This document shows, in pieces, positions 11,799 through 44,552 of a stretch of DNA of 64,000 bases (within the stretch, counting starts at the first letter, position 1; each line of letters starts with the position of its first letter). The translations under genes and the position numbers were made by a program. Below the pieces are notes generated by a model that was given only the letters and a program-made list of their open reading frames with translations, was not told the origin of the DNA and did not search any database. The DNA comes from Sanghuangporus weigelae (lineage: Eukaryota > Basidiomycota > Agaricomycetes > Hymenochaetales > Hymenochaetaceae): positions 1,984,001 through 2,048,000 of the forward strand of contig CP137318.1 of the NCBI GenBank assembly GCA_033182465.1, in the 5' to 3' direction.

Positions 11799-13629
11799 TC
11801 AGAAGTCCTGGTACGGAGGAGGGGTAGCGCCATCTCCATCCGCATCTTTGCTTCCGCTTCCCCAACCATCTTTTCTAGCCTGCTCCTGCTTAAGAAGTCT
11901 GTCTTTCTCCTCCTTTTCAAGACGTTTCTTTTCTTCTTCCGCGGTCTCGTACTTTTGAACCGGACCTTGTGCAAGACGCTCACGTTCCTCCTTCTGGAGG
12001 CGTGCCTTCTCTTCTTCAGCGGGCTCGAACCTCGGAGCAGAGGCCGTTGAAGATGGAGGAGGAATATCCGATCTCAAATCCTTCAGAGATCCGCTCTTGG
12101 GACCGGGGCCAAGAGGTCCGGCCGATACAGGCATGCCTGTCTCTGCAATCGTTGGCTCAGGAATCTGAACAGGAGATGTAGTTGGCTCTGCTGCAGGAGG
12201 CGATGTACTGGAAATAGTAGACGGCGCAGCAGCCACATTAGACGCGACAGGAACGGCCTCGCTATCCTTCGTGTTTACCGGAGAGGACCTTGGAGGAATT
12301 GGAGCGGGAGCATTGTTCAATGCCGTAGGGTTGACTGGTGGCGGGGATGCCTTCGGTGCCGAGGGCTGAGGTGGGACTGAATGAGGAACGGAAGCACTAT
12401 CATGCGAGGTTCCAGGCAGGCTCGGAGAAGCTATGTTCGAGAGCTCCGACGCATGCGTGACACCGAAGCTACGTGAATCTGACCGGTTGATGTCCGCGAC
12501 GGAAGGCTGGAAAGAGTGACTGATGCTTCCGGGCTTAAAGTTATCCAGTGCTTGCTGAAGTGACGCACGTGTCGCGGCTGTCGACTGGGCTCCAGTGTAA
12601 GGCTGGCTTTCCGACGGCGGAATAGATGGGAGAGCGTCGATAATTGAAGTGGACGCCTCCGCGAGTAGCACCAGCTTTTCACCATACTGCAGAAACAACG
12701 GAGTCAGTAAATAATAAAATGTCTGATAACGATACGAACTTCTCTGATTGCAGCCCATTTCGCCCGCTCAGATTCTCTGACTGCATTCCTCTTGAGGATT
12801 TCTATCGCCTTCTCGGCAGGCTCATCTTCAGCCTCCAGTCTAGCAAGCTGTTCTCTCAGATCGGCCAACCGCTTCTCAGATCCCTTCTGCATATCATGTT
12901 CGAGTCTCCCAATTTGAGTCTGGAGACCCGTACGGCTATTGCGTTTTGGCTCAAGTTCCTTTTCCGCATTACGCAGAGCTTTCATCGCGGAGCGAGACGA
13001 ATCCAATTGAGAGGCCAGAGTTGTAGATAATGCTCCATGAACGAAGTTCAAGTATGCGAGCCTATCCGTTACTGAATAGTACTTAGAAGTGGTCGTCGGC
13101 AAGGGTATGAGAATAAAACATACCATCTTTGAGATCCTCATCTTGGCCTTGTCCCCACATATACAATTCCTTGCTCTGAGACTTCGCATCTTTCTGCAAT
13201 CAACTAGATCAGACACAGTAGTATCGGCCTGTAGAGAAAGCAACGTACGGCTGCACTCTCGAAGTCAAGAACGACTCCCTTTTGAGATGTAATGATCCTT
13301 TGCACAGGTGAGACATTGCTAACGGAAGAAATGGCATGAGCACTGGGCGAGGAACAAAGGCGCATACATCCATCGAGAAGGGCGACTTACGCATACTGCA
13401 TCTGCAGATTTCTGAACTGATACGTGATACTTCCAAGCACCTGTGATTTGGCACCGATACCTCCCTGTGCTGCGGATTGATTTGCCGTTGGCTGCTCAGC
13501 AGAGTCCGCTCCGCCATGCTCCTGCTGTTTCTGTACTTTCGACTGTAGGTGCGATACCTGGCTTGAAAGCGGCGACTGCTCGTACACAGACTGTGCCTTT
13601 GTTGCTATGGACGAGAAAAAGCTGGACAT
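11799..13629 (-). CDS. Eisosome core protein, Pil1/Lsp1 family (BAR domain)
   Basis: The N-terminal ~270 residues form the Pil1/Lsp1 BAR-like domain: SQVLGSITYQFRNLQMQYA, then DAKSQSKELYMWGQGQDEDL, DRLAYLNFVHGALSTTLASQ, and QTQIGRLEHDMQKGSEKRLA with ADLREQLARLEAEDEPAEKA. These residues make the curved helical dimer that coats plasma-membrane furrows (eisosomes) with PI(4,5)P2. The C-terminal half is a long Pro/Ser/Ala-rich disordered region with a charged stretch rich in EEEKKRLEKEEKDRL, unlike the short tail of yeast Pil1. Introns are short. Start at 13629 is the first ATG (MSSFFSSIATKAQS); the stop is at 11799-11801. Family assignment is strong; whether it is the Pil1 or Lsp1 equivalent is not decidable. 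Confidence 0.88.
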
Positions 13630-13858: not shown

Positions 13859-14135
13859 TACAACATCCAACTCAAAGAGAATAAAACCAATATTTCAAAC
13901 AATAATCTTTTTCGCCTTGCCCTTCTTCTCCGAGTCCTTGTGCGACAAGAATTCCACCTCTGTTGCTAATGGTCCAGCAAGCTTTTGGTTCTCAGCATAT
14001 CCAAGCACGCTTGTCTTGAAATGCCTTCCAATAGACTCGATTCTTGCCCGCAGCTTCTCATCGTCAGCCTGATTTGACGGAGCGAGGCGCGTCCAGATTG
14101 ATATCCGGTAAAACTGCGGACGCGTAGAAACGATG
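13859..14135 (-). repeat. Inverted repeat copy A: native 3' end of eIF4E
   Basis: 277 bases inside the eIF4E gene (last exon from IVSTRPQFYRISIW to the stop, plus about 36 bases downstream of it) recur in opposite orientation at 16165-16441. Reading both base by base I found no mismatch. Sequence similarity stops abruptly at both edges. Confidence 0.9.
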
Positions 14136-15064
14136 ACGCCAGTCACTAATGACTGCGGTGCGGACCCGTCGGGCACAGGTGCGGACGATTCGAATGTTTC
14201 TCCAATTGCAGCCAACATCTGTACACGTATGAACATCACACATCTCTTTTCTATGAACTAGCGGACTTACTGTATACAACCACATCTTATCAACATTGTT
14301 CCTGTTCTTGTCTTTTGGCAATTGAATGCTCCATTTCCCTCCGTACTTATTCTGTTCATCCTCCCAAGCTGGGATGATGCCCTCCTATAGACCTGTAAGT
14401 CGACATACGCTCAAACATCTAGAATAATCGGACCTTGAAGAGGTAATAGTTGGCTTTTTGCGGCAACTGCGATGGAGGTACTATGTTGTTGTACAAGCTG
14501 CCAACATTAACCATCAATTAATTGTCTTATTTTATCAAAAATGGTCCGGACGTACCCCCAGAATTCCTCCACGCTGTCGAAACTTATCACGCGTTTAATG
14601 TCCTCCATCCAGCCGGTCGCCGCAGCCGCAGCCGTGCCAGGCGTTTGTGGTAGTGGCGTCTGAGGCGCAGCAGTGACTGGTGTTTGCGGCAAGTTTCGTC
14701 CCTTTGTCGAGGGAGAATCGAACCAAAGCATCCATGGTGAGAAGAGAGGATGCTATCAAGGCCGTAACCAAGTGTATGGTAGGGCGGCGTCACTCAACTT
14801 GCAGTGACACAGTAGTTTAAGACGTACCTTGACATTGAAATTCGTCGGATCACTGAAGACAGTACGTATGCCTTCCGCCTGGGATTCCATATCCACCTCC
14901 TGGATTTCGCCGTCCTCGAGATTGTCACCATTTGTTGGCGAGTCCGACGAGTTCTTTGTTGTGTCATTGGAACCGTTCAAGTCTTTGTTTTCAGACAAAG
15001 CGGCGGAGAGTGCTGCTCTGGATGCCTGCATCGCAGAGGCTGGGAGCGAAGTAGCCGACGCCAT
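13895..15064 (-). CDS. Translation initiation factor eIF4E (mRNA cap-binding protein)
   Basis: After an acidic, Ser-rich N-terminus (NGDNLEDGEIQEVDMESQ) the cap-binding fold begins with FNVKHPLFSPWMLWFDSP, continues through DSVEEFWG, NNIVPPSQLPQKANYYLFKEG, IPAWEDEQNKYGGKWSIQLP and DKMWLYTMLAAIGE, and ends in a last exon running from the eIF4E core into FYRISIWTRLAP and a basic tail (KKGKAKKIIV). The tryptophans that stack on the m7G cap, the Glu that pairs with it (W-E-D-E) and the 4E-BP/eIF4G-binding Trp are present. Start chosen at MASATSLPAS (15064); an in-frame ATG further upstream (MCAVVILH..) is possible. An insertion of Ala/Thr/Pro repeats (TPLPQTPGTAAAAAT) follows the first core strand, which is unusual. 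The 3' end is duplicated downstream in inverted orientation. Confidence 0.92.
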
Positions 15065-16164
15065 GTTGACCGCCTTGCTGGGTAAGAGTATAGTATGCAA
15101 TATCACAACGGCGCACACGGTCGGTGGGGGCAGGCCTAGGGTGACGACAGATCGGCGAAACAGAGGATTTGTGGGGTGGGACCAAGCAAGAATACAGTAA
15201 GTTAAATGTGCTGAGCAGAACTAGAGTAACGATATGGGAAGCTGAAGCAAGCGCAGGGAAAGTGTTGATGAAGCAGAAAGGAGATGCTCTTTGTAGTGAC
15301 GGTACAGGTTCTTGTGAGATTTCTTCTGCAAAACTGGATCATCATCCTCGATCGCCCTTACGCCACATAGATTAGTCAGCCTTTGATGTCTCATTCACAT
15401 ACTCTACTCTCTTGCAAATTGTTCTTTCTTACACGAGCTCACTTGTATTTTTATACTTTCTGTGTTCGAAACAAAAGCCTCTGAACACAGTTTCTCGAGC
15501 ATTGAAAATGCACATGACCAACTCATACTCACTTTCTCACTGATGGGTGGGTGCCAGACGCGATGTCCATACAAGTCCTTCCTGCTGTGTTCTTTCAGTG
15601 TTGCAGAGCCTGTGTCTCGTTGCTTCGGTCGTCAACATTGATATGACGATCGACACTGTGATCTATCAAAAAACATTAACAAGTTCTCTCCTGGTATATC
15701 TGGTTTACCCGAATTTATGCAATGCATGGGGAGTCCGGACGGAGCAGATGATACGGCAGCAGGCGGTAGTTTGCTGAGCAATGAGAAAAACGCGATTGGT
15801 CCTTCTCTCCCATGGTAATCGCAATCGTCACTGTTCTCTTATTTTAAACCCATCCTTCTGATGAGAAAGCATCCAACTTACTCAGTCTTGTCATACAGCA
15901 AATCTATTGACGCACATTCTTGCCACGGGTGAGCCATAGGCCGCTTTGGACGGCGTAACCGATTCGCGGGAGGTGAAGGATTTTGCCCGGATCTCCTCTT
16001 TTGTCACTTCGCCGGCGTTCTCGGTTCAAACGCTTCTCACTTCCGTTGCTTGTGAGACTGTTTGCGACTCTCTGGTCTAGTCGATTGACGACCCGTATGC
16101 ACTCCCATCTCCTTTGTTACAGCAGGACTTGAGTCTGGCCCTAACGCAGAATGCGAACATTAAC
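15065..16164. other. Gene-free stretch upstream of eIF4E
   Basis: About 1.1 kb containing the eIF4E promoter and then DNA with no reading frame I could join into a protein. Only short frames without domain resemblance are present. No repeat family, tRNA or transposon ends were recognised. Confidence 0.5.
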
Positions 16165-16441
16165 CATCGTTTCTACGCGTCCGCAGTTTTACCGGATATC
16201 AATCTGGACGCGCCTCGCTCCGTCAAATCAGGCTGACGATGAGAAGCTGCGGGCAAGAATCGAGTCTATTGGAAGGCATTTCAAGACAAGCGTGCTTGGA
16301 TATGCTGAGAACCAAAAGCTTGCTGGACCATTAGCAACAGAGGTGGAATTCTTGTCGCACAAGGACTCGGAGAAGAAGGGCAAGGCGAAAAAGATTATTG
16401 TTTGAAATATTGGTTTTATTCTCTTTGAGTTGGATGTTGTA
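16165..16441 (+). pseudogene. Inverted repeat copy B: detached duplicate of eIF4E 3' end
   Basis: This segment encodes the same C-terminal residues as eIF4E (from VSTRPQFYRISIW through KKGKAKKIIV and the stop) plus the same ~36 bases after it, on the opposite strand, 2.03 kb from the native copy. It lacks all upstream eIF4E exons, so it is not a gene by itself, although an ATG a few codons upstream (MRTLTIVSTRP) gives an open frame. Identity to the native copy appears complete, including the non-coding part, which implies either a very recent event, gene conversion, or an assembly artefact. A 13-base string just at its left edge (AACATTAACCATC) also occurs at 14503-14515 inside eIF4E, which could be junction microhomology. 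Confidence 0.88.
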
Positions 16442-18673
16442 TTAGCATTCCATTATGGCTCTCTTCAACGACCACATCGTTACCAGCAGGAATATACCCC
16501 GACGTATTGGCATTCAAGCCACCTGTATTCTCGCAATCTATTTATTTATAGACATAAAGTTTCGGGATGCGTAAGCAATACCGGACTGGATATCAATGCA
16601 CCTTCTATATCTGCTGCTGAAAGCTCTGGCCTAGAAATGAAAGACAAGGATCCAGCTGACCTTCAAAATCAACCTTCTCGCGATCCCGTACGATTGAGTT
16701 ATGTCTTTTCGTAGCTGTGGCGCTTTCAACCCTGTACTCGCTGGTCGCTCGGTCTGGAATGGAGGCGCTCAGACGCTGTGTACACTGCGGTCTACTAAAC
16801 ATCTGAACAGATGACCATCCGGATTCCTGGATGGAAAGGTTAATAAGTTGTTCCCCTTGTTCTCGGTTTGAAGTTCGGAAAATGACTGGATATCCTTTTG
16901 AATATTGGTAGGTAACAAAATAACGACTATACGTGGAGATAGATACCATCGGGCATGAAGTTCTTCGCGGTAGCAAGTAATCGGCCAATTATCCAGTTGC
17001 CTCATACTTCTACAAGTAGCAGCTCTTGGACACAACTCCCTCCCCTCTCTTCTTAAAAAAAGCTTATTAAATTTCTCATCTCCGCGGAGTCTGAATATCC
17101 TATGACTTTCTCAAGAGTAATTCTGCCCCGAATGTGATTGCCTGCCATCGTTGTGCCTATCAGACTTTTTGGGAAGAATCTGAAGGGATGGGGGACGTAA
17201 TTCACGACCGCCGCTACGTCCATTATTGAAATGCTCGGAATAATACTTTCCCTCGAAAACCGTTAGAACGACATGTTCAAGGTCAAGGTGAAAATCAGCT
17301 TCGCCGAACAAACATTAATATTGAAAGATTCTCCATCCTCCCATGCATATGCCAGCGGATAAATTTTCTCGACACATTCTTTGGAATGGACTTTGTCAAG
17401 TTCGAGGATTACCTTCTTTTTCATTCCTTCCTTTTCTGATTAATTGCCTCTCGTCTCGGACATTCGTAAGTATCCGCACGATTGTGAAATAGCTGCACAG
17501 TACTAGAGCTTCTTGTATACTGGCTCGACGTGACTGCGACTAGTAGGAGTCATTGGAGTCCCGCGCATTAATATTGCATTGTCTTTTGCACTTTTGAAAT
17601 TTTGATTATTATAATATCTCCCCCTTTCTGCGGGTGGGACCGAACGCGGTGCAGAGAAGTTCTCCTTCTCCTCTTTCAAAGTTCAGGTTCATCACTGTCA
17701 TACAGACAGTCATGGGTAATGGGCGACTTTCTGCAATTGAGTGTTTAATTAACAACTACTGCTAATCATAATCTTTATCAAATACTTATCAAATCAAAAG
17801 TATGACCGGATCCGCCTGCTAAATAAGGCTTAGTTTAGAAAACATCCAGTGCCCATTGGCCAATCACTTCAATGTATCAATCTGTGTACGTACGGCAAGG
17901 AACCCAGAATGCATGTACATACAAGAGACGAGATGCTTAGAAGCACACGAAACTCGTCTATTCGTTTATTAGTCGGGGTGAAGTCTGGACTTTGATGATC
18001 TCTTTCATGAAATATCATCTGCAGAACGCGGTCGAATTCAGAAGTTCGCGTCGTAGATTCTTCAGCAGGAGTAATGTATATATTTCGTGCTGTAAGCGAA
18101 TGAGATCGAAGCTCAAGAAGTCAACGGGGAGTCGAGACAGTCGGCCATATGAAGAGCACGATCTGGAGTACACACATTTAATTGGGTTAGATGCACAGCG
18201 TTTACATCATCTAAGGGAAAGAAAGGAATGGAAGGAATATGGCACGTGGGCAATACTAATAATAAAATCCAGAGGCAAAACCATGTGGCTTTTCTTCTGA
18301 GTCGTACGGGCCACTATGGAATACGATTGGATGGGATGGAAAACAGGAACAGAACGCATGCAGCGAGAGCGGAGTAACTGAGATAGGGGTGGAAGGGCAA
18401 TACTACAGATGGTCGAGAAAATGATGAACTGAACATTGAACAACGCTAGAGCCGACATCAAAGAACCTTGGGAAAGGCTGATATGCAGATAAATCGGAGG
18501 AAGATAGAGAAATGGGAAGACAGAAGACGAAAGACAGAAGTTTATCTGTATGTCGTGTCGAGCACAATGCGTAGTTTCGCTATTGGACCGGGCTGCCGTT
18601 GGCCGTCAAATAGAAGAGGGAAGCCGTTGAGGATCAGGGCAGGCCGGATGCCGCCTCTAGTCCTGATGCAAGA
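16442..18673. other. Gene-free stretch between eIF4E duplicate and paralogue pair
   Basis: About 2.2 kb, fairly AT-rich in 17540-17900, without a frame that I can recognise or join to exons. The longest minus-strand frame (16605-16988) has no domain-like pattern. No terminal repeats or target-site duplications seen. The last part should contain the 3' region of the minus-strand gene ending at 18674. Confidence 0.45.
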
Positions 18674-20258
18674 CTAGTCGAAATTTGAATGCACCGGTCT
18701 GCCAGCGCCAGACATCTGATCGACGGTATTCGATATGGTATTGGATTGCCTGTTCACTTCGTCCCTGTTCACATTCGAGCTTGAATCAAACTGCGGTCCC
18801 GTATTCGAAGTTCGAATTGAATCATGCACACCCGTCTTTGGTGCGCACGTGCTGATGCCCATGAATGCGTTTGATGCCATGAAGGATAGAGCCGTCATAT
18901 CAGCGTCTGCGCCGAGTTGCGCCCGCAGCTCGTCGTACTGTCCGATAGAATTCATCGACACATCGGGGAGACAGATCAAAGAGAAGCACCTTGATTTCAG
19001 CTTCCCTTCTTTCCGCGTGCAACTTCGCGGTCGTATTCTTCAGATGCACGATCATGGTCTGAGTCGTTCCGGATCATTGGATTGAAAATCATTGTAAGAA
19101 GCGTTGACATTTTTAAGGTACAAGGGTACATACTCTGATGGAACGACTGGTGAGCCCACGACCGGAGGAAACACGCTCCATAGGAACAGGTTCATGGCCA
19201 GCAAGACGCAGTTGCTTGTGCAAGTAGATAACGTATTGCTCAAGACAATCGAGATACAGCCGTTTCTTGTCGTGAGTCGAAATGGTGTCACTGTTCAGTT
19301 CTGAGTTCTAGATACAATGTGAATGCGAGGGAATTGCTTACGGATCTGTTGGAGTAAAGCCGAGCCTTTCGGTCTCATGTACTAATTGCGCTTTTCGGCG
19401 CTCCACTCGTCGACGGTCCCTCTGTGCAGCTTCAGCATCGCGAATCGACAGTTCGCCGAGAAGTTCTACCGGGGTCGGGAATGTGTCGCTTGGAGGCACA
19501 AGCTTACCGCTGGTTTTGATATGTACTTGTGAAGTTTCCGGAGGAATCGCATCCGGGAGGTACGGCATTTCGCTAGGACGCCTGGCTGACGCGTCCAAAT
19601 CGGTTGAACATGAAGACGGAGGGGGGCCCGCGGGAACTTGGGGTATTGAAGGTACCTGCGGTACCTGTATTTGAGGGAAAGAAGGGTTGGCTGCGAAAGT
19701 ATGATTGTGCCACATCTGCGTTGATACCGAAGGTGCATGCAAAGACGAAGGCGCGCCTTGGGCAGAAACATTGCTAGCTTGCATACGTGCCATTTGGGTA
19801 GCCGTGAGTTCATCAAAGACCGCGTTTGGAAAACCGAAATGGTCTTTATCAAAGGGATCGATAATTGTGCCATGTGCGCCAGGTGCAAACGCAAGAGGTG
19901 ATTGGACATGTGCATTCGTCATGGCGTTGTCAAATGCCTGAACGGGATTGAAGAATGGGACAGGACGGGGAGAATGAAGGAAAACATTATGTTGAGCCGA
20001 GATGCCTTTATGATAGAAGCGCTGAGTGTGAACGGAGGAGGCATTGATTGAAAGTGGATTAGGATAGGGCGCAGAGCTCATACGTCGATCCCTCCTACTG
20101 GAGGGTACTACCCGAGGTATGACAGAATGATGAGGGTGGGGACGCGATAAGTCATCAGAAGGAATATCTGGGATGTAAGTGCTTGTTGTGGGACTGCTGA
20201 GGACGGTGGGTGCCCCATTTGAGCTGGGGATAAGGTGGTTGTAAGCGTGGACGAGCAT
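18674..20258 (-). CDS. Uncharacterised fungal protein, paralogue of the divergent neighbour
   Basis: Four exons join in frame (19342-20258, 19134-19290, 18990-19058, 18674-18937) to give 468 residues. The first exon is Pro/Ser/His-rich, ends with a basic Arg-rich stretch (AQRDRRRVERRKAQLVHE) resembling a DNA-binding or nuclear-localisation segment, and leads into the module HDKKRLYLDCLEQYVIYLHK..LAGHEPVPMERV..GRGLTSRSIR, then MIVHLKNTTAKLHAERREAE. The second and third exons match the neighbour's exons 3 and 4 in length (157 and 69 nt) and phase, and about 15 of 52 residues are identical without gaps. I do not recognise the family from characterised proteins. A regulatory role is possible given the basic stretch and predicted helices. 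Start 20258 (MLVHAYNHLIP) is chosen; an upstream exon cannot be excluded. Confidence 0.72.
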
Positions 20259-20774
20259 GGAGCAGGCGATGAGGAGGAAGACACTGGATGGGGCGAGATG
20301 AGACGAAGCGCGTATAAATAAGAAAGTATGGACAAGGTTATGTATGTTACCGTCGATGCAGGTAAAAGGCACAAGTCAAAGTCACGACAATAATAGGATA
20401 TGCGTGATTTCGTAAACATTTTGCTGAGTGGCGTTAGACAACTCCGAGTGTCCGGATTTGAATCTCAGATGCATAGTTGATCGCTTGACCGTCGTCCGAG
20501 GAGGAAGCAATTGCAGGTGCAAGTCAAGTGGTGGCCGTAATATAGTTATGGGTCCCTGTTTATGTCTATTGTCTTTCATCCGGAAGAAGTCGGCACCCCC
20601 GATCTTCAGCCTTTGCTTCCATGGCCTTCAACCAGGCAATATATTCTGAAAAAGGCAAGAACAGAACAGCTGAGCTCAAATATATGCTGTCGAATTATAA
20701 TCAATATCTACTGTCTTGCTTAAGCTTCCCCCTCTCGCTCTCGCTCTCTCAAATCTTCCCTCCTCGTCGTTACT
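20259..20774. promoter_or_regulatory. Shared divergent promoter region of the paralogue pair
   Basis: 516 bases separate the two start codons, so the promoters must lie back to back. The + side has a strong pyrimidine tract (CT/TCGCTC-rich, about 20717-20765) directly before the ATG of the right-hand gene, as is common at fungal transcription starts. Confidence 0.55.
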
Positions 20775-22621
20775 ATGATCTCCAACCAGTACTCAGATCA
20801 TTCCCGGTACTCCTTGGACAATTCCTCCCAGATCTTGAACGATGATTCACCAAAGTATCTTCTTAACGTGGTCTACGCTACGACAGCGACTTACTGACTT
20901 GTCGATTCCCTCTTACCAGTTGTATTGCTGTTTCTCAAACTGATGCGCCTCCTCATTATTTTGACGATTCCGGCTATTTGCATCTGCGTAACGTTTTGCA
21001 ACAAAATATGTCACTAATCGACCCGTCATCGCTGCCTCCGTCTGGGTTGTCGTATAGCAACCCCTCCTTACAGAGGAATTCGATGCGGCCAAATCCGCCT
21101 GCTCTTCACATCCTAAATAATATAGAAAGCAATGCGAATACATCAGACTCGGCGTATTCTGGGTATGATCAGTCGTCCGGATGCCCCTCGATTAACCTTC
21201 AAACTCCGGCTACGCCAGTGGATCAGGCATTTTACATGAATGGCTCTGGAGCGGACAGCATGACTTCATTCTCTCCCTCATCTACTACGAGCGGTGAACT
21301 CGACTCTGCGGAAGGCGTCTCTCCCCGAACGGCTGACACTCCATTGGCCGACGCGGATGGAAAAGAAGCGCTCCCGGATGTAACAAGAAGCGGCGGGGAA
21401 CGCGTCGAGCATAAGAAACGTAACTCCCGTCGCATGTGGACTCACTCACTCGAAAAGTATATTTTCACACCCCACGAAATGTGAGACGCATTGCTATCAG
21501 TCTGTGCCGTAAGACTGACTCAATTGCCTCCGTTTCTTATTTCACTCAACGATTCTCTTCCTGATTCTCGGAAATCATAATCTCCCATTCCTCCGTGATC
21601 GCACACTTGATCCATGCGTACGGTGAATTTCTTCACAGCGCTACGCTAGGGACTCCACACCGTCGTACTATTTACTCCGCTTCTCTAGAAGCGCACATCG
21701 ACCGCCTTCATAGCCAACTACTCGGTGTTGGACTCTATCCAGTACACTTTGATGACCTGGAAGTATACAGGGGACTCAATTGCAAAATCGCTAAGGTTAG
21801 TAGAGTTTCACTCTGACTTTATGCGAATAAACACCGCATATTCTTCTTCTACGCCACTGCCGTCGTGCTGGGATGCTGAGTCTCTGTTCCGAGCTTCCGA
21901 TATGACCATGCTGATCAGGAGATCCTGCGTTGATTCACGATTACGCCTACTTGAGCTTTGCTGTGTCTGGACCTGTAGATGTCCATCTTGGAGCCCCCCA
22001 AAACTACGAGACCTTACACGATACTTTCTTCTACTTATGTTGTGCTTAGATTCTCATTCTTTAGTTGACTCTGATTCACCCATTTCGTTGTGCATCCTGA
22101 TTCTGTGTTCCTTGATTCTCGTCATCACGCTAAGCTCGCATATATCACTGACGTACTGCTTCTTGACTTCTTATAGGGTATGGTCGCAGGGTTACAGCAC
22201 GACTATATTCAGGTCCGTACGCGACACCTCGAGATCGAGCGCGCGGTGAGTAAATGGCTTCGTCTTTTCCTTATATCGCTTCCATCCTTTTGCTTTGCAT
22301 AAATTTCCTCTGCATTCTTCCCGCTTTTTCTCTTGGGTTCTCCCTATTCGTAACTGAAGCCTCATACATTATCCGCTGCGATCTCCGCAGCGGCCTCCCA
22401 CGGCCTCCTGCTCATTTTTCTCTCTCGCGCACTGAGAAACTTACGCACTCCCATGACAGACAAATAATGCACGAGAAATGGCAACCGTGCGAGCCAATCA
22501 TGGCGTAAATGGGGCACAGAGCGATGGTCGAGGGATTGTAGATCAAGCTGATCAGACTCACGAGGATTCGATGGATGCGTCTACGGGTTCTGATACTGCA
22601 TTGTCCTCAGCGCATCCCTGA
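20775..22621 (+). CDS. Uncharacterised fungal protein, divergent paralogue of the left neighbour
   Basis: Five exons (20775-20854, 20920-21480, 21639-21795, 22177-22245, 22460-22621) join exactly in frame to 342 residues, starting MISNQYSDHSRYSLDN. After a Ser/Thr/Pro-rich N-terminus and a basic patch (EHKKRNSRRMWTHSLEKY) comes the shared module HRRTIYSASLEAHIDRLHSQ..GVGLYPVHFDDLEVYRGLN..IAK followed by MVAGLQHDYIQVRTRHLEIE, probably two helical segments. The C-terminus is acidic and polar. The intron between the two module exons is long for this window (381 nt). The fact that intron phases all agree makes the model credible. No characterised homologue recognised. Confidence 0.72.
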
Positions 22622-23344
22622 GCTTTTTCGAGGAGCGTTACTTATGATTCACTACCAAAAAGGTGCCAGTTCGGAATCGCCCCATTTATTGTTATTCGTT
22701 TTCTTTCAGATCATGCCGGTTCTTTTGCTTTATCGCTTGCTGTCGCATTGCATTACCATGAGAAGAGTTTGATTTGGATCAGCTCTTTCTTTTCGTATCT
22801 GGAGCTCATCGGCGCACGAGATCTCGGTCTCCGAATTCAGATGCTAGTGAAGAGCAGTAACTTTGTGACTGAATTGTGTGCTTCTTCGAGAACTTCGAGA
22901 AGTATATTGGATCTCATTTATCGTGAGCTGCTGTAGCGTTAGGCGTTCGATCGTTCATCAGGGTCTTCGAGCAACGTAAACTTTCTCAATAAGCCAGGGT
23001 GATCTCAGGCTGTTCGTACCGCCGCCCGTTTGCGAATCATGTTTTCATCATAACAAATACAACGAAATATTTTCGTACGGATGATCAGGGGGCCGTCAAT
23101 ATTAATGTGAAGGAAGGGGTCTTTCGGCGTCTAACACCGTTCTAGATCTGGTGGAATATTTTCATTTTCACATCAAATATTCCGGATTTTTTTTTGTCAT
23201 TCCTGATGTACTACCGAATTTGGAAACTTTGGGCTTGTTTGTATGATCGTCACAAGTCCCTACAACCTCGATAACATCATCCACCATCACGGTCTGTACC
23301 TCTCTTCTTTATCTATCCTCAAGCTTTGCAACTGGGCTACGACA
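22622..23344. other. Spacer before SPF30 with an AT-rich hairpin
   Basis: No gene is seen. It contains a perfect 9-bp inverted repeat (GGAATATTT / AAATATTCC) at 23153-23161 and 23175-23183 with a 13-nt loop, about 160 bases before the SPF30 start, followed by a T run. Confidence 0.45.
23153..23183. repeat. Perfect 9-bp inverted repeat, 13-nt loop
   Basis: Arms GGAATATTT (23153-23161) and AAATATTCC (23175-23183). It could be a hairpin, a palindromic protein-binding site, or chance in AT-rich DNA. Confidence 0.6.
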
Positions 23345-24187
23345 ATGGACAGAGTCGACGAGAAGGAACTCGAGGCGTACCAGGTGCAATTATCTCAGGC
23401 CGAGCTCGCACTGAAGGGCGATCCGGAGAGCGCTGAGCTGCAGGAACTCGTGTCCGAGCTGAAGACGCTTATCCAGCTTACTGAGGAGTCTATCCGACAG
23501 AAACAAATACAGGCCGCTCAGAGCAAGGCTGAATCGAGCCGCAAAGCCTCTCAAGCAGGTGCTGCTGGAAAGACGTGGTCTGCGGGTGACGAATGCCTTG
23601 CGAAGTATTCCCAAGATGGTCAATTTTATCCTGCACGAATTACGAGTGTCGGCGGCGCTGAAGACAATCGAGTGTACAGCATTGTGTTTAAGGGCTACAA
23701 CACGACGGAGCTCGTCAAGGCGAACGAGGTCAAGCCGCTCAGCGCGTCGTACCTTTCAGGCCCGGGACCGTATGGCGGTGGAGCCTCGTCGAGCGGCGCG
23801 GGAAAACGCAAGCTCACGAAGGACGAAGAAGAGGACCGCGAGCGGCGAAAGCGGCGGACTGAGAAGAAGCTGGAGCTGCGCGCCACGAAGGCGAAAGAGC
23901 AGAACGAGAAGAAGGCGAGCTGGCAGAAGTTTGCAAAGAAGGCTGAAAAGAAGGGTGTCCACATCGCGGGTGTCTCCGGCACAAGTATCTTCAAGACACC
24001 TGACAATCCCTACGGAAAAGGTGGGCGTAGCTTCGCCTCGGATGTGTTTATGCCTCTCGAGATTTGAGATTTTGCTAATAATTTTTTTATTTTTATAGTT
24101 GGTGTCACTGGAAGTGGCAAGGGTATGACGGAGAACAAAGAGAGGCCAAAGAACAAATTTGTGAAAGATGCGGACAACACCTCATGA
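23345..24187 (+). CDS. SPF30/SMNDC1-type Tudor splicing factor
   Basis: N-terminal helical region (EAYQVQLSQAELALKGDPES), then a Tudor domain: WSAGDECLAKYSQDGQFYPA followed by RITSVG..YSIVFKGYNTTELVKANEVKPL. Aromatic residues of the dimethyl-arginine cage (W, Y, Y) are present. A basic, Glu/Lys-rich C-terminal region (RERRKRRTEKKLELRATKAK) ends in GVHIAGVSGTSIFKTPDNPYGK and, after one intron, VGVTGSGKGMTENKERPKNK. This C-terminal pattern is diagnostic for survival-motor-neuron-related splicing factor 30, which helps recruit the tri-snRNP to the prespliceosome. The start is ATG 23345 (MDRVDEKELEAY), preferred over an upstream in-frame start because conservation begins here. Confidence 0.9.
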
Positions 24188-25602
24188 GAATGAGAAACGG
24201 GTTCAACCACATGTATGTCGGTCCACTGCTCTTCAGCTTCTTGTTTCGATACTCAACGCGTGACCCCAGCTATCTCTTGCGTTTTCTCCTCTAATCCTCT
24301 ATAAACGCCCGTCATTGACGATCTGTATCTTTTCAAAGGATGTATTATCATAGACGAACTATGACGAAGCGCAAGCAGAACCAGGTGGTTATGGCGACAT
24401 GCTGGCGGCGATACATCTATGGCTACGTCTATTTCTCTTTTGTTATGACAGGACAATTCCTCACTTTTTGTTGAAAACGTATAAGTAATCACAGCTTCGC
24501 ATTCCCGCTGCACACAGAGTTTCTGTGATGGTCGTGGATAACCGAGCTGCATTGCATGTGTATTTATGACACCGATAGATGTCCAATTACTTACTTTTCA
24601 GTCGTGTCGGAGAGCAGCGACAATCAGGATTAGCGGCAAGTTCCACTTGTTATTCAGTCTTGAACTCGGAAATAAGTGACACCTGTTCTTTGCTTGCTCG
24701 AACAACACCCAGTATACTTAGAGAATCACCGTCCTGCCGTTGTGGGATGTAAATGTAAAAGACGGGATTCATCGCAGTGAGTTGACGAACTATAATCGTA
24801 CGATCTGCCAATCACTGTGGATAGCTCCGCTGCCTCCCCCGCGTGGCGTTCAAGTTCGTTCCACCTAGCCTAGCAAACTGCCTTTTTCAATTTAATTCGA
24901 ACCGCACCACGTTCGAAAATCTGGGGTAATGTCTCACACAATCATCAAAATTCTGTGCTGTAACTACCATTACACTCTGATGGAAGTATCGAAGACATGC
25001 CGTATTCCCGCTCAGGTTACATTACTACCACAGTGCTCACAGTGGAGAAACGATCAGGTTCTGGTCCTTTTCGCAGTATTACGCTTGTCTGCCGCCGGTG
25101 CCCATAGATGTGGGTGAAGGACAAATGCTTCTTCAGCCACAGCTTCTCTTAGCTTCTCTCTTCGGCTTGCATGCTTCATTTTTCCGGCTTTAATTAAGGT
25201 TGTATCCTTTACTAGATTTATAATTCACAGAACTGCTGCAAGCGTTTCGGGTCATTCCTAAGCCCGTATCGTGTGATGCTTTGATTCTGCGCAAAAGAAT
25301 AATGTAGCATCTGTGGTGCGGCACAAGGCTGCGTAAACAACATTGATTTTAATTTGGACTGTACATGTGTCGAAAACTTCATGATTTTGTTTCTTCACGA
25401 GGTTCTGTCTACGTTACTTCTTCCGGATTAACTTCACTGCGACATCTTGTGCGTGAATGTGAATCTTTTACGTGCCACTTTCGTGGGTGGAGTTTTGTGT
25501 GACGAAAACGGAGCAAAATCTATCAGTCATACATATGATCAATACAACATCAAGAAAAGTATACGTGCGCTTGTGTAAAGCACAAAGATGGGGTGAGACA
25601 AG
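24188..25602. other. 1.4-kb convergent spacer without recognised gene
   Basis: It lies between the 3' ends of SPF30 (+) and RIO2 (-). Only short frames occur, none with a recognisable domain. Sequence is mixed and moderately AT-rich. No tRNA boxes or terminal repeats seen. Confidence 0.45.
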
Positions 25603-27668
<2,066 letters not shown>

Positions 27669-27866
27669 CCTTGAAATATGAAATGGTGCGTTGATCGTTG
27701 TAAAGGGTCAAGGTGAAGTTCTGGTTTTTAGATCGAAATTAGAATTGCAGGGAATTTTTGTTTGATGTCATGACTACACGTGACCAAGGATCGACGCGTT
27801 TGGATTTTGGATTTGATCAAATCTTTCTCATTCTCATTATTCATTACACTTCGGTTGCACAAAAGC
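27669..27866. promoter_or_regulatory. 198-bp divergent promoter between RIO2 and NAA40
   Basis: The two start codons are separated by only 198 bases, so both promoters must fit here. AT-rich stretches lie at about 27720-27770 and 27810-27845. No specific factor site is claimed. Confidence 0.5.
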
Positions 27867-28869
27867 ATGGAGGACGATTCGCTCACGAATCACTCTGCAA
27901 TAAGGAAGGCAAACGCAGTGCGTTGGAGTATATTTTGCAATGTATCCGTAGAGTCCTGACGGAATTCCTTATAGGCCCCATCAGGCAAAATCCAGGAATA
28001 TGTGGCAACCGAGCAGACCATTAAGAATAATGAGTAAGCTATAAGAAAATAGATTTCATGAACGAGTGGTCCTGAAATCTCTTAGATACTGCTTCATCGT
28101 ACGAAAGTCGTCTGAGCTGTCAGATCCATTAAAAGAGCGAATATGGACGATATTCGAGAACAACATGAAGTCGATGTGGGTAAGTTATAACCTTCTGCCG
28201 CGAGGCCACTCTCTCAATATTGTTCCCTCCAGATATGAAACTGGCAATGTGTTCCCGTGGGATCCGCCTGAGAAACGGAAACAAATGTTTCACGAGCACT
28301 CGCGTTTCCTTATGATAGGATCTGGTTCCGAATCCGAGTCAGAACGCGCGGACTTTTCGGTACGAGAAGAAGCAGTTCTCGCTTATTGTATTTTCCGCTT
28401 TGAAAGAGACGAAGGGAAGGACGTTGTCTATGTGTGAGCTTTGATGCAATAAGATACGATAATAAATTCTTATCATCTACGCAGATATGAGCTTCAAGCC
28501 AGCGATGTGGCGCGCCGACTCGGACTAGGAAGAGCTCTTATTGAGAACCTGGAATCAATCGGAAGAGGATTCCAGATGTCTCTAATAATGCTAACTCATC
28601 TTAAAGGTAGGACTTTTCCTGCTATCCGGATTCTAAGGAAATAAGCAGCTGAGTATCGAGTATCTTGTCAGGGAACGAGGCCGCTAAAGCGTTTTATGAC
28701 TCTCTTGGGTAAGCCATCCACGAATTCAGGATTGATTACCTCATAATAATCTGCTCCTAGCTTTGAGGTAGACGAAACATCTCCGGATTATGAGGATGAT
28801 CGTGCAGTTGAAGGTGGCATATCAGACGAGGGCTATTCGATTCTTTCGCGTCGAATAAAGACTCATTGA
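27867..28869 (+). CDS. NAA40: N-alpha-acetyltransferase 40 (NatD), histone H4/H2A N-terminus acetylase
   Basis: Exons join to MEDDSLTNHSAIRKANA, PSGKIQEYVATEQTIKNNEY, then SDPLKERIWTIFENNMKSMW, a segment with YETGNVFPWDPPEKRKQMFH, and the GNAT core: VLAYCIFRFERDEGKDVVYV, YELQASDVARRLGLGRALIE, LIMLTHLKGNEAAKAFYDSL and GFEVDETSPDYED, ending GYSILSRRIKTH. The R-x-x-G-L-G-R/K acetyl-CoA loop and the W..K..EM-like helix plus the Y-x-I-L-S-(R/K)-x end match Naa40. NatD acetylates the Ser1 N-terminus of histones H4 and H2A. The start codon is 27867; the first intron uses a GTGCGT donor, and all joins keep phase. Confidence 0.88.
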
Positions 28870-38925: not shown

Positions 38926-39111
38926 ATTTGCGGATTTAGATCTCCATTCCACTCGCTCGATACCGCGCATTGTATACGATACCAACCCCAACTCAATGTA
39001 TTTTTTATTTTTCACTATTTTTTTCGTGCATTTTCTCCTCGCATTACATAATAACGAAACCATTCTTCGCTTCGAAGAACGAAAATCACTCACCGGTGAC
39101 CGACAACTGGT

Positions 39112-41352
39112 ATGAGGCGTGCTCTTGGAAAATGCGTCCCCTCTCAGCTCGTTTTATTCGACTTCCTTGCGCCTCGACTCTACACGTCTTCAAAGACGCG
39201 GATTTTGACAGGAAGCACATCTCGTCCTTATCTTCAAGTATCGGCTGCTCGTAATATCTCTACAACCGCGAAGACACGCGCGACCGCAACGAAATCTTCG
39301 ATTCTCGATGCTGCAAGTAATTCAGAAGGCGATCTGAGCTACCATGCCGCGCATCTATACAAATGTGCCCTGGCTGGAGATATTCTTGAGGTGTGGTCTG
39401 CGTACGGACAGATTCATAGCGAGCATCGGCGTCTGGTGCTCGGACCTGAGCATTATGGTGCATTGTCTATGATGTTGGTTAAGAAATACGATCATGTTCT
39501 GTCTACGGCGGACAAGAGCGATGAAGAGCTACACGCGATGGAGGAACTTACGTTTGCTTGTGCGGGTGCCGGATACGTGGAGGGCCTGCGCCAGATGCTG
39601 GTCTGGCGCCTTGTGAGGTCGGAATCAGATAAAGTCATTAGTGCGTTCGAGCGTTTCGAACAAACCTTGCTTCTAGACGAGTCCGGTTTGGAAAAGTCGA
39701 CGACACCTCCGGACACGGACACAGTCGACGATGATGAAAACGAGGAACTAAGACTTGCGAATCCAGATATAAGCCGCCTGGACGTTGCGAACATAATGGC
39801 TGTGACGGTCGCAGCCTACGCAGCACAGGGACGTTTCCAGGATGCCGTACAATTCATCTTGCAGCATCCAACGTACCGAGTTACTGGCGACAATATGGAG
39901 ACGTTAGGGGAGGAGCTGAAAGCTTGCGGTATGGACCAAGGGCCACGAAGTGCCTTAGTGTCGACGACGCGGTACTACATTGATTCTGGTGGCTTGGCAC
40001 TACTGGTACAGCGGCCGGAAGCGTTCAAGGCTCATCTGCGTAACTTGGTGAAGGAAAGGAGAGTCGGTCATAGGTTGGACAAGCTCCGAGCTAGATTTAC
40101 AGCCGCGTTCAATGGCAAACATGCATGGGCAGCAGCAACAGAATCACAACAATCTCCTACGCGTCCAATAGTCGTTCCAGAGAAGATCTGGGGATATCTT
40201 ATTTATTCTTATATTGTCGTACGCAACGAAGATTCCGCGAGGGCGCTTTGGGCCGACGTCATCAGGTGGGGAAGGGAACCGGGAACGGAGATGTTTAACG
40301 CATTGTTGGAGGGCTATCGCGATGCAGGCCATTTGCCGAAGCTTCTGCATACATGGCAAGTGATGGAAAAGCAAGGTATCCCTTTCGATGCACGCTCCTA
40401 TGGTGCAAAGCTTGGGGCCCTTGTACTGGACCGGGACGCTGGACACTACTCTTTGACACTATTCGACGAGTTCAAAGCGACAAGGCCGAACGAAGAAGAT
40501 AGTTTATTCGTCTACAATATCGTCCTCAACAATCTGCTTCTTCGATACGAAAGGAAAAAAGCTCTCGCTTTGCTTGACGAGATGAAGAAACGTGGTCCTC
40601 AACCAGATATCGTTTCTTACAACACGTTTATTGCACACTATGCGAAGCAACCGAACTTGCAAGAGATCACGAAAGTTGTTCGGGAGCTCACAGAAGCCTG
40701 CGTCGAACCGGATGTATTCACGTTTACATCAATTCTTTCGGCGTTGTTGAAAACTCGGATTTCCAATGGTGCGGAACGTCTGCTGAGCATTATGGATATG
40801 ATGGGTGTGAAGCAGAATGTTGCGACGTACAGTGCGATTATTGATTCGCAGGTACGGAAAGGGACGAAAGTCGGCGTAACGGCCGCGTGGCAGGTTCTAC
40901 AGCAGATGGAACGCATGAAGGACGTTAAGCCGAACATAGTCACGTATACGTCGTTCCTTGCGGGCTTACATCGAAGCCGGGAGCTGGACAAAAATCTCAT
41001 TACGTCTATCTCATCGGACGTTGTGCAGACGATGACGAAACGCGGGATGCGACTGAAGCTAGGGACGTATCAAGTCCTACTGAAAGCGTGCTTGGAGAAC
41101 CCAAATGCAGAAGCGCTCGATTTCTTTATGGACTATTACAACATGATGCGGAGGAATGGGGTACCGCTCTGGCACGATACGTGGTATATTATTCTGGATG
41201 GGCTTGTTCGAAGGGAGGAATGGGAGTTGGGAAGCGAGATGAAAAAACAGATGCTAGACTCTGGATTCCAACCGATGTGGGGCGTAGCGAAGAGGATGAG
41301 GTTGATTGAAAGCTGGGAAGCGCAGAATGGGAAAGGACTAGGGACTTTATGA
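39112..41352 (+). CDS. Mitochondrial pentatricopeptide-repeat (PPR) protein
   Basis: A single 746-codon reading frame without introns, in contrast to its neighbours. The leader is mitochondrial in character (MRRALGKCVPSQLVLFDFLA). The C-terminal half contains 35-residue PPR helices such as PDIVSYNTFIAHYAKQPNLQ, EPDVFTFTSILSALLKTR, VKQNVATYSAIIDSQVRK and VKPNIVTYTSFLAGLHRS. PPR proteins bind organellar RNA, and in fungi most act in mitochondrial mRNA stability, processing or translation. The N-terminal half is helical but less clear. No SMR or endonuclease domain is visible. The target RNA cannot be inferred. Confidence 0.88.
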   Translation: MRRALGKCVPSQLVLFDFLAPRLYTSSKTRILTGSTSRPYLQVSAARNISTTAKTRATATKSSILDAASNSEGDLSYHAAHLYKCALAGDILEVWSAYGQIHSEHRRLVLGPEHYGALSMMLVKKYDHVLSTADKSDEELHAMEELTFACAGAGYVEGLRQMLVWRLVRSESDKVISAFERFEQTLLLDESGLEKSTTPPDTDTVDDDENEELRLANPDISRLDVANIMAVTVAAYAAQGRFQDAVQFILQHPTYRVTGDNMETLGEELKACGMDQGPRSALVSTTRYYIDSGGLALLVQRPEAFKAHLRNLVKERRVGHRLDKLRARFTAAFNGKHAWAAATESQQSPTRPIVVPEKIWGYLIYSYIVVRNEDSARALWADVIRWGREPGTEMFNALLEGYRDAGHLPKLLHTWQVMEKQGIPFDARSYGAKLGALVLDRDAGHYSLTLFDEFKATRPNEEDSLFVYNIVLNNLLLRYERKKALALLDEMKKRGPQPDIVSYNTFIAHYAKQPNLQEITKVVRELTEACVEPDVFTFTSILSALLKTRISNGAERLLSIMDMMGVKQNVATYSAIIDSQVRKGTKVGVTAAWQVLQQMERMKDVKPNIVTYTSFLAGLHRSRELDKNLITSISSDVVQTMTKRGMRLKLGTYQVLLKACLENPNAEALDFFMDYYNMMRRNGVPLWHDTWYIILDGLVRREEWELGSEMKKQMLDSGFQPMWGVAKRMRLIESWEAQNGKGLGTL

Positions 41353-41917: not shown

Positions 41918-44552
41918 ATGGATGGTCCTCCTCCCGCTGTGCCCGCAAAACCAGGGCGCTTGGTCGGTAATGCTCTCCTCTACGCTATCAGTATCTTTGC
42001 TAGTTTGGGTGTATTTCTGGTATGTATTTCGTTCGCGATTTCATTACAATCTGCCCTCCGTACTAACTGGATCCTACGCACAGTTCGGCTATGACCAAGG
42101 GTACGCTCGCCACAATGCAATTTACACGAGGCTAGCTGTCCATCTAAACTCATGTGCTCGTATTAGTGTCATGTCCGGTATCATCACCGGACCATATTTT
42201 CAAGCTTATTTCGCCCTCACAAAATTCCAGCTGGGGACGGTCGTCGCAATTCTAGAGATCGGCGCTTTAAGTTCGTAACTTTCTTCGCGAAGTCCAGAAA
42301 AAAATCAAATGATTCACGTGTCTTTTTGCTTGTAGTAACGTCTCTTGCTGCGGGACGTGTAGGGGACGTGATTGGGAGGAGGTTGACTTTGTTCTGGGGC
42401 GCTTTCGTCTTCACGATTGGCGGAGTAATTCAGTCATTTACCATAGGAGTTGAAATGATGATCGTCGGGAGACTCATCAGCGGATTTGGTGTCGGCTTGC
42501 TTTCGTACGTACAATTTCGTAGGTCAGCAGGTCCTGCTCCTAACCAAAGTGCTCTAAAAGGACTATTGTTCCGATATACCAGAGCGAGATTTCACCGCCG
42601 AATCATGTACGTTTCGAGATTATTGAGTGCTACTTTCTGTTTTGCTAATAGTTTACAGAGAGGCGCTCTTGCGTGCATGGAATTCACCGGAAACATCTTT
42701 GGTTACGCTTTCTCCGTCGTGAGTACACTAGCTGGATATCCCACTGAGCATGCACGTCTAAACATCTTCAGTGGACGGATTATGCTTGCTCATTCATAGA
42801 CTCCGATTACTCGTGGCGCTTGCCATTGTTTATACAATGCATTATCGGCGGTATACTCGCTGGAGGCTCCTTATTGATGCCTGAAACCCCTCGGTGTGTA
42901 GAAATCTCCGATCTTAGATACGGAAGAGTGTTGATCGCTTTGTAGTTGGTTGATTGACACTGACAGAGACGATGAAGGGATGCGAGTACTTGCTGATTTG
43001 CACGGAGGAGACCCGAATAATCCCGTTGCTCTCGACGAATACCAAGAAATTAAGGATAGAGTTATGGCTGAGGTTATATTTTCATTCTTTGATACGTTGT
43101 TGAATACGCTGACGGAAGACCGCAGCGTGACTCGGGAGAAGCTAGATCTTATGCTGTGATGTGGAGGAAATATAAAAAACGTGTGCTCCTGGCTATGTCC
43201 TCCCAGGCCTTTGCACAACTGGTACGCGTTTTGTTTCCTGCGCTCTATGTCGTTATTAACGGCTCGCACAGAATGGAATCAACGGTATGTACTTTCGCAT
43301 GCGGAGGACCTGTGCACTAACGGTTGCCCTTTCTGAAAGTTATTTCATATTATGCCCGTGAGTTCTTTTTAAAACTTATTTCTGCTGGTAGCTAACTCAT
43401 TGGTGATAGCTCTCGTTTTCGAAGGTTTGTGTATCTCAATAACTTATACTCCAATGATACTAAGACTATTCCGACAGAGGCGGGCTGGGTTGGACGGGAT
43501 GCCATTCTTATGGCAGGTATCAATGCTCTCATATATCTGCTGAGTACCGTACCGACATGGTTCCTTGTTGATCGCTGGGGAAGGCGAGCTATCTTGATGT
43601 CTGGTGGCGTAGTTGTAAGTCTATTCGTTGCTCATACTTCCGGGGCATTGAAATTGAACCGGAATTGAAGATGGCTATTGCGTTGATGATGACTGGATGG
43701 TGGATGTACATCGACGTACCCAACACTCCGCGAGCCGTCGTGTTCTGCGTCATTGTTTACAACGCTTTCTTCGGGTATAGTTGGGGACCGATCCCGTGGT
43801 TGTACCCGCCTGAGGTAAGGCTCACAGAGCCAGTGGCTGAACACAATGATTGATGCGTTGTTGTATTCTAGATAATGCCTCTCGCTGTTCGCGCGAAGGG
43901 TGTGTCTCTGTCCACTGCCACGAACTGGGCGTTCAACTTTCTTGGTTCGTGGGATTTTTGCGTGAACGGCCGAAGATGATCATTGAGCTCGCCCTTTCTA
44001 GTTGGGGAGAGTACTCCAGTCCTTCAAGCTGCGATTCGGTGGCGTCTTTACCCGCTGCTCGGCTTCTTCTGCACATGCAGTTTTATTCTCGGTAAGCGGC
44101 GTAGCCTGAATTCGCTTTTTGTCAGTAAGACTGAATTTGTTGATTTTCAGTTTATTACCGTAAGTAGAAATGGTCAAATCGTCTTCAAATGCTGACACTG
44201 TCATTTAGTCTATCCCGAGACGATGGGAGTACCATTAGAAGAAATGGATGCTGTATTCGGGGAAGGTTAGTTTGCATTTCACTCGGTCTATTCTTGGGTA
44301 TGTTTTTTGACTCAATCCTAACCAACAGAGGAGCGTATCGAACAAGAAGAAGAGATGGAAGAAGAGGAACTAGAGCGCTTGGCTCTTCTTTCTGGCAGAC
44401 GAAGGACTCTCAGTTTGCCCTTCAGTCACAATTACGGAGCTATCCCGAAACCGGCGACAACGACTCCTAGTGCAGGTCCGCCACCGTTGCCGCGCAGCAT
44501 TTCATGGCATGGAGAGCGACAGCCACTGAATCGAAATGATGATGATGAATGA
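41918..44552 (+). CDS. MFS sugar-porter family transporter (tandem copy 1)
   Basis: Twelve-helix major facilitator. After splicing it shows FGYDQG at helix 1 and GRVGDVIGRRLTLFWGAF (the G-R-x-G-R-R loop 2-3 motif), GRLISGFGVGLLS, PIYQSEISPP, RGALACMEFTGNIFGY, PETPRWLIDTDRDDEGMRVL, NGIN..ISYYA, DRWGRRAILMSGG, and NWAFNFLVGESTPVLQ with PETMGVPLEEMDAVFGE. These place it in the sugar porter family (proton-linked hexose or polyol transport at the plasma membrane). Exons include three consecutive micro-exons of 13, 18 and 15 nt (43272-43284, 43340-43357, 43410-43424). The long acidic/basic tail ends at 44552. No break was seen, so it appears functional. Substrate unknown. Confidence 0.87.

Follow-up and report, generated by a model that had tools for sequence, protein, structure and literature searches.

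An identical inverted copy of the eIF4E 3' end beside the gene in Sanghuangporus weigelae, probably a recent partial duplication

In Sanghuangporus weigelae, the 3' end of the eIF4E gene is present twice, as two identical arms in inverted orientation that enclose the 5' exons and the upstream region of the same gene. In the analyzed window, i.e., the whole stretch of 64,000 nucleotides from contig CP137318.1, and against a background known for 200 kb, this structure is real, perfect and locally unusual. The reading that we favor, with a probability of about 0.68, is an inverted duplication of part of eIF4E, recent and probably inert, that arose in the S. weigelae lineage, most likely via error-prone repair.

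The inverted repeat and the eIF4E gene

A repeat search and a direct string comparison both yielded the inverted pair 13859-14135 and 16165-16441, in which 277/277 bases are complementary and the arms lie 2029 nt apart (Table 1). The preliminary description had reported a mismatch-free inverted copy that extends from the C-terminal codons through the stop to ~36 bases farther on, and both statements were confirmed, the arm containing exactly the final 79 complete codons with one additional base, the stop codon, and 36 bases past it. The arm consists of eIF4E exon 5 sequence, beginning 83 bases into this last exon, and of 36 bases past the stop, and not of element sequence. In the 33.87-Mb genome of 13 contigs, the 277-mer was reported at two places, which are the two arms (both candidates were scored, 2/2), and the spacer and the 2 kb to the right of the right arm at one place each, such place counts being lower bounds for repeats; identical inverted repeats (277/277) enclose this once-reported spacer of 2029 bases. 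These counts rule out a transposon or a multi-copy repeat.

A chance match is likewise ruled out, because, once the left arm is removed, the maximum length of exact inverted matches in the 64 kb is 15 bases, and that in five mononucleotide-shuffled windows is 14-17 bases, compared to 277. When 200 kb including the window were compared to themselves (blastn, E<=1e-5, low-complexity filter on), only one of the 18 self-matching pairs was inverted, namely, the 13859/16165 pair. Other repeats were noted in this region. The direct repeat 42559-43074 / 45866-46387 (~67% over 535 aligned columns) corresponds to two neighboring sugar-transporter-type genes, with Pfam Sugar_tr found on the ORFs 42167-42799, 43396-43668 and 46904-47239, and overlapping direct repeats of 64-84% identity at ~1,943,035-1,944,538 of contig C1 are perhaps a tandem-repeat coding region or a minisatellite. 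The window also contains an intron-free frame of 750 aa for a pentatricopeptide-repeat protein (39100-41352, plus strand; Pfam PPR_2, E=6.5e-38).

Table 1. Features of the eIF4E locus and its surroundings (window coordinates)
Feature	Position	Strand	Basis
Left arm, apparently the native eIF4E 3' end: 79 final codons with the stop and 36 nt past it	13859..14135	-	sequence; polarity from the eIF4E-PIL1 order of relatives
Right arm, identical inverted and apparently derived copy, 1.1 kb upstream of the eIF4E start codon	16165..16441	+	sequence comparison
eIF4E, five exons, 311 aa	13895..15064	-	hand-spliced; Pfam IF4E
Spacer, 2029 bases: eIF4E 5' exons and 1.1 kb upstream (putative promoter)	14136..16164	.	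one genome place reported
Predicted open frame through the right arm, 84 aa	16151..16405	+	translation
PIL1/LSP1 eisosome gene, same strand as eIF4E, downstream	11799..13629	-	Pfam Pil1; hand-spliced
Right flank, no gene recognized; would be the eIF4E downstream flank after inversion	16442..18200	.	ORFs, Pfam
NAA40-type acetyltransferase exons, ~12 kb from eIF4E	28069..28605	+	sequence comparison

The eIF4E gene itself was hand-spliced into minus-strand exons 15064-14828, 14752-14556, 14497-14434, 14384-14271 and 14218-13895 (stop included); its product matches the Pfam IF4E profile significantly (E=8.3e-48, residues 81-283), and is 98% identical to the eIF4E of Sanghuangporus baumii. Weaker protein matches on contigs C2 and C13 (39% and 38% identity) look like ordinary eIF4E-like paralogues with no relation to the repeat. 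It should be noted that exon 2 has a Met (14729-14731, minus strand) within a W-x-L-W-F stretch, where all 120 listed homologues (the best 120 of 927) have Thr; relative to a presumed ACG, the ATG found there would amount to a C-to-T transition in a CpG.

The right copy is not preceded by any eIF4E exons. An in-frame ATG, present by chance at 16151, opens a frame in which MRTLT precedes the last 79 eIF4E residues, 84 aa altogether. The four stop-to-stop ORFs of 102-127 aa in the right flank yielded no Pfam match (0/4), and a gene in this flank is unsupported. No RNA family reached the gathering score between 11 and 20 kb of the window.

Gene order in relatives and the native arm

The polarity of the duplication can be read from the neighborhood of eIF4E in other species, for which we inspected by eye the locus tags in 120 listed of 927 eIF4E matches and in 120 listed of 364 PIL1 matches. 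Among the matches listed, eIF4E and PIL1 tags are consecutive in 6 of the 7 species with tags visible in both listings, i.e., in Coniferiporia weirii, Phellinidium pouzarii, Tetrapyrgos nigripes, Hohenbuehelia grisea, Trametes cinnabarina and Tephrocybe sp. NHM501043; in the seventh, Hydnomerulius pinastri, the tags are not consecutive, but both proteins are on contigs equal in length. Locus tags are evidence for neighborhood and not for strand, which was taken from two annotated fusions, P0139 (Leucocoprinus) and P0188 (Psilocybe), where eIF4E is followed by PIL1 on one strand. The eIF4E-then-PIL1 order looks ancient in Agaricomycetes, and it indicates that the left arm is native and the right arm a derived fragment, with the locus now in its ancestral orientation. 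These two fused models, and the eIF4E-NAA40 fusion P0103, are probably gene-prediction errors that stem from the tight tandem order.

The neighbor in S. weigelae was recognized as PIL1 from one exon (Pfam Pil1, E=3.7e-15), and the hand-spliced protein agrees with S. weigelae LSP1 at 530/532 residues and with that of S. baumii at 500/531. S. weigelae has probably been assembled a second time, as the public LSP1 record, which differs at 2 residues, suggests.

Another change of order was found on the other side of eIF4E. In Coniferiporia (M0805_004211/004212) and in Phellinidium (fused model P0103), NAA40 is the direct neighbor of eIF4E, whereas here it is ~12 kb away, in the orientation opposite to that in the Phellinidium fusion, with four hand-read genes in between (window 15065-28605). 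Two of these, at 19.3-20.4 kb and 20.9-22 kb, gave no Pfam match in the ORFs tested, and the other two are an SMN-Tudor/SPF30-like gene and a RIO kinase. In S. baumii, LSP1 (ACEPAG_604) and NAA40 (ACEPAG_610) are on contigs equal in length, and the five numbers between them fit eIF4E plus the four hand-read genes, so that the same displaced order would be present there. Accordingly, the displacement would be older than the zero-difference copy, unless the copy has been homogenized, and, assuming the hand count of four genes, it seems to be a separate event. A tie between the right arm and the NAA40 displacement was set aside because the displaced order is apparently common to S. baumii.

Origin of the copy and rival explanations

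We propose that a 277-base segment with the native eIF4E 3' end was inserted, as an inverted copy, into the intergenic DNA ~1.1 kb upstream of eIF4E itself, most likely during error-prone repair, either by template switching, by end-joining of a captured piece, or through staggered breaks. The right copy would be either recent or still held identical by recombination, and it is probably an inert fragment, because it lacks preceding eIF4E exons and adds no more than an open frame of 84 aa. A side effect of such an event is that the locus could isomerize by homologous recombination with the eIF4E coding sequence unharmed. We infer the age of the copy, its repair origin, its inertness and the absence of regular flipping.

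The chance of zero differences in 277 bases is 0.25 at 0.5% divergence, 0.06 at 1%, 0.004 at 2%, and <1e-6 at 5%. Between S. weigelae and S. baumii, 31/531 LSP1 residues are different, and unconstrained DNA should have drifted by at least some per cent since these species split. The copy thus probably postdates the split, or it was homogenized. The ends of the copy are abrupt. The 600-base outer and inner flanks of the arms are no more alike than shuffled sequences (82 and 113 of the 200 shuffled versions reach at least the same score), and a wider duplication with eroded edges was not seen, the flanks being without residual similarity; such sharp edges are those that a single event would be expected to leave. 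Gene order in relatives and these unrelated flanks together fit a native arm accompanied by a truncated, derived copy.

Inspection of the junctions by eye recognized no microhomology or target duplication. A cDNA fragment is possible as the origin, because the arm is within one exon and would look the same with or without intron loss; no A-run or clear target duplication was seen by eye at 16442. Staggered breaks, known from Drosophila inversion breakpoints, leave the inverted segment flanked by inverted duplicates. An inversion of this kind would produce the same repeat; however, the eIF4E segment is in the ancestral orientation, unlike the Drosophila segments, so that a second flip would be needed. 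This re-inversion, if it happened, would itself be evidence of flipping, and nothing demands it.

The perfect identity of the repeat is equally expected from continuing gene conversion or recurrent inversion. An old inverted duplication held identical by gene conversion, without inversion, would account for the zero differences, which have a chance of <0.004 were the copies at least 2% apart; we nevertheless consider it improbable, since homology ends abruptly on both sides, with no eroded homology beyond. Another, weak argument against an old duplication comes from the 120 listed of 281 matches (proteins of ~75-238 aa), among which there is no eIF4E fragment under the name Sanghuangporus, although annotation may skip fragments. 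The three Sanghuangporus matches in that list are all NAA40, and the closest eIF4E-type match in it is P0246, with 78 aa and 94% identity over 38% of the query; the sources of the eIF4E-type matches listed are ena, jgi, lgn or ncbi. Where the preliminary description offered a very recent duplication kept alike by gene conversion, the recent duplication fits best and gene conversion is possible.

Inversion of the spacer was carried out in silico, and the coding sequence was re-read. After inversion of 14136-16164, the five-exon eIF4E coding sequence is letter-for-letter identical, on the plus strand at 15236-16405, and the earlier claim that inversion restores an intact, in-frame eIF4E with a different downstream flank holds geometrically. 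This survival follows necessarily when a gene's own 3' end forms the arm of a perfect inverted repeat, and it counts for geometry, and not as evidence of inversion. If the flip is real, the protein is unchanged and the downstream flank is new only beyond 36 bases past the stop, so that of the "two exchangeable 3' ends" proposed earlier the differing flank stands, whereas the coding sequence of both ends is the same. The eIF4E/PIL1 pair would go from tandem to head-to-head, which would bring the putative eIF4E promoter beside that of PIL1.

Inversion isomers, in which recombination of the arms flips the 2-kb spacer with the 5' half of eIF4E, whether at meiosis or on an evolutionary time scale, would give two strain types with different neighbors and the same protein. 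The perfect 277-base arms with a 2-kb spacer resemble the Sclerotinia MAT locus, and the eIF4E coding sequence survives the flip in silico; on the other hand, the one assembly has a single orientation, which is the one suggested as ancestral by gene order, and no switch was reported for the Saccharomyces flip/flop region, whose arms are 4 kb long, in ~53,800 mitoses and 950 meioses (PMC9731477). Isomers are, in our opinion, unlikely. Still more doubtful is the stronger version, in which the locus is a self-preserving isomer switch that places eIF4E in tandem or head-to-head with PIL1, changes its 3' flank, and makes expression differ between nuclei or strains.

Missed-adapter palindromes are not known to have a 2-kb spacer, and the 2.6-kb structure should fit within single reads, given usual read lengths. 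An assembly or library artefact could be suspected from the single assembly and from the 0.58% heterozygosity (with a single k-mer peak) that the genome report gives for a strain called monokaryotic; on the other hand, that report describes HiFi reads over 1 kb, Hifiasm assembly and short-read polishing, with 13 contigs, the longest of 4.49 Mb, and a total of 33.96 Mb (PMC10803629). The assembly or haplotype artefact that was considered in the preliminary description is weak for a HiFi-based assembly of a strain said to be monokaryotic (PMC10803629), and we regard an artefact as highly improbable.

Comparable systems and significance

The Sclerotinia sclerotiorum MAT locus is the closest known case. 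There, identical 250-bp inverted repeats flank 3.6 kb that are inverted in every meiotic generation, the arm is a fragment of MAT1-1-1, and the inversion, which was shown in progeny, truncates this gene, as reported (PMC3574095). Both loci have, in a fungus, a short identical inverted repeat that is a fragment of a local gene and flanks a few kb; in contrast to the demonstrated inversion of Sclerotinia, the eIF4E flip is known on paper only, would leave the gene intact, and concerns no mating-type locus. The flip/flop region of Saccharomyces chromosome XIV has 4-kb arms with two gene pairs around a 24-kb region with 15 genes, and both orientations occur across the genus, with flips over evolutionary time (PMC9731477). 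This system is similar in that an inverted repeat permits two isomers, with homogenized arms there and identical arms here, and it differs from the eIF4E locus with its 277-bp arms, partial gene and one orientation seen. These two systems bracket what could be expected of the eIF4E locus, which is like them on paper.

Among the papers searched, none joins eIF4E, an inverted repeat and invertibility, and none joins Sanghuangporus and eIF4E. A search for a human analogue, with IKBKG as the candidate, gave no usable parallel. If flipping is true, the locus would represent nuclear inversion unrelated to mating type, in which an essential gene is spared by construction, and an easy PCR assay could then measure how often inverted repeats recombine in a basidiomycete. 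If the structure is static, it would be a clean, recent, partial inverted duplication, the polarity of which is readable from gene order.
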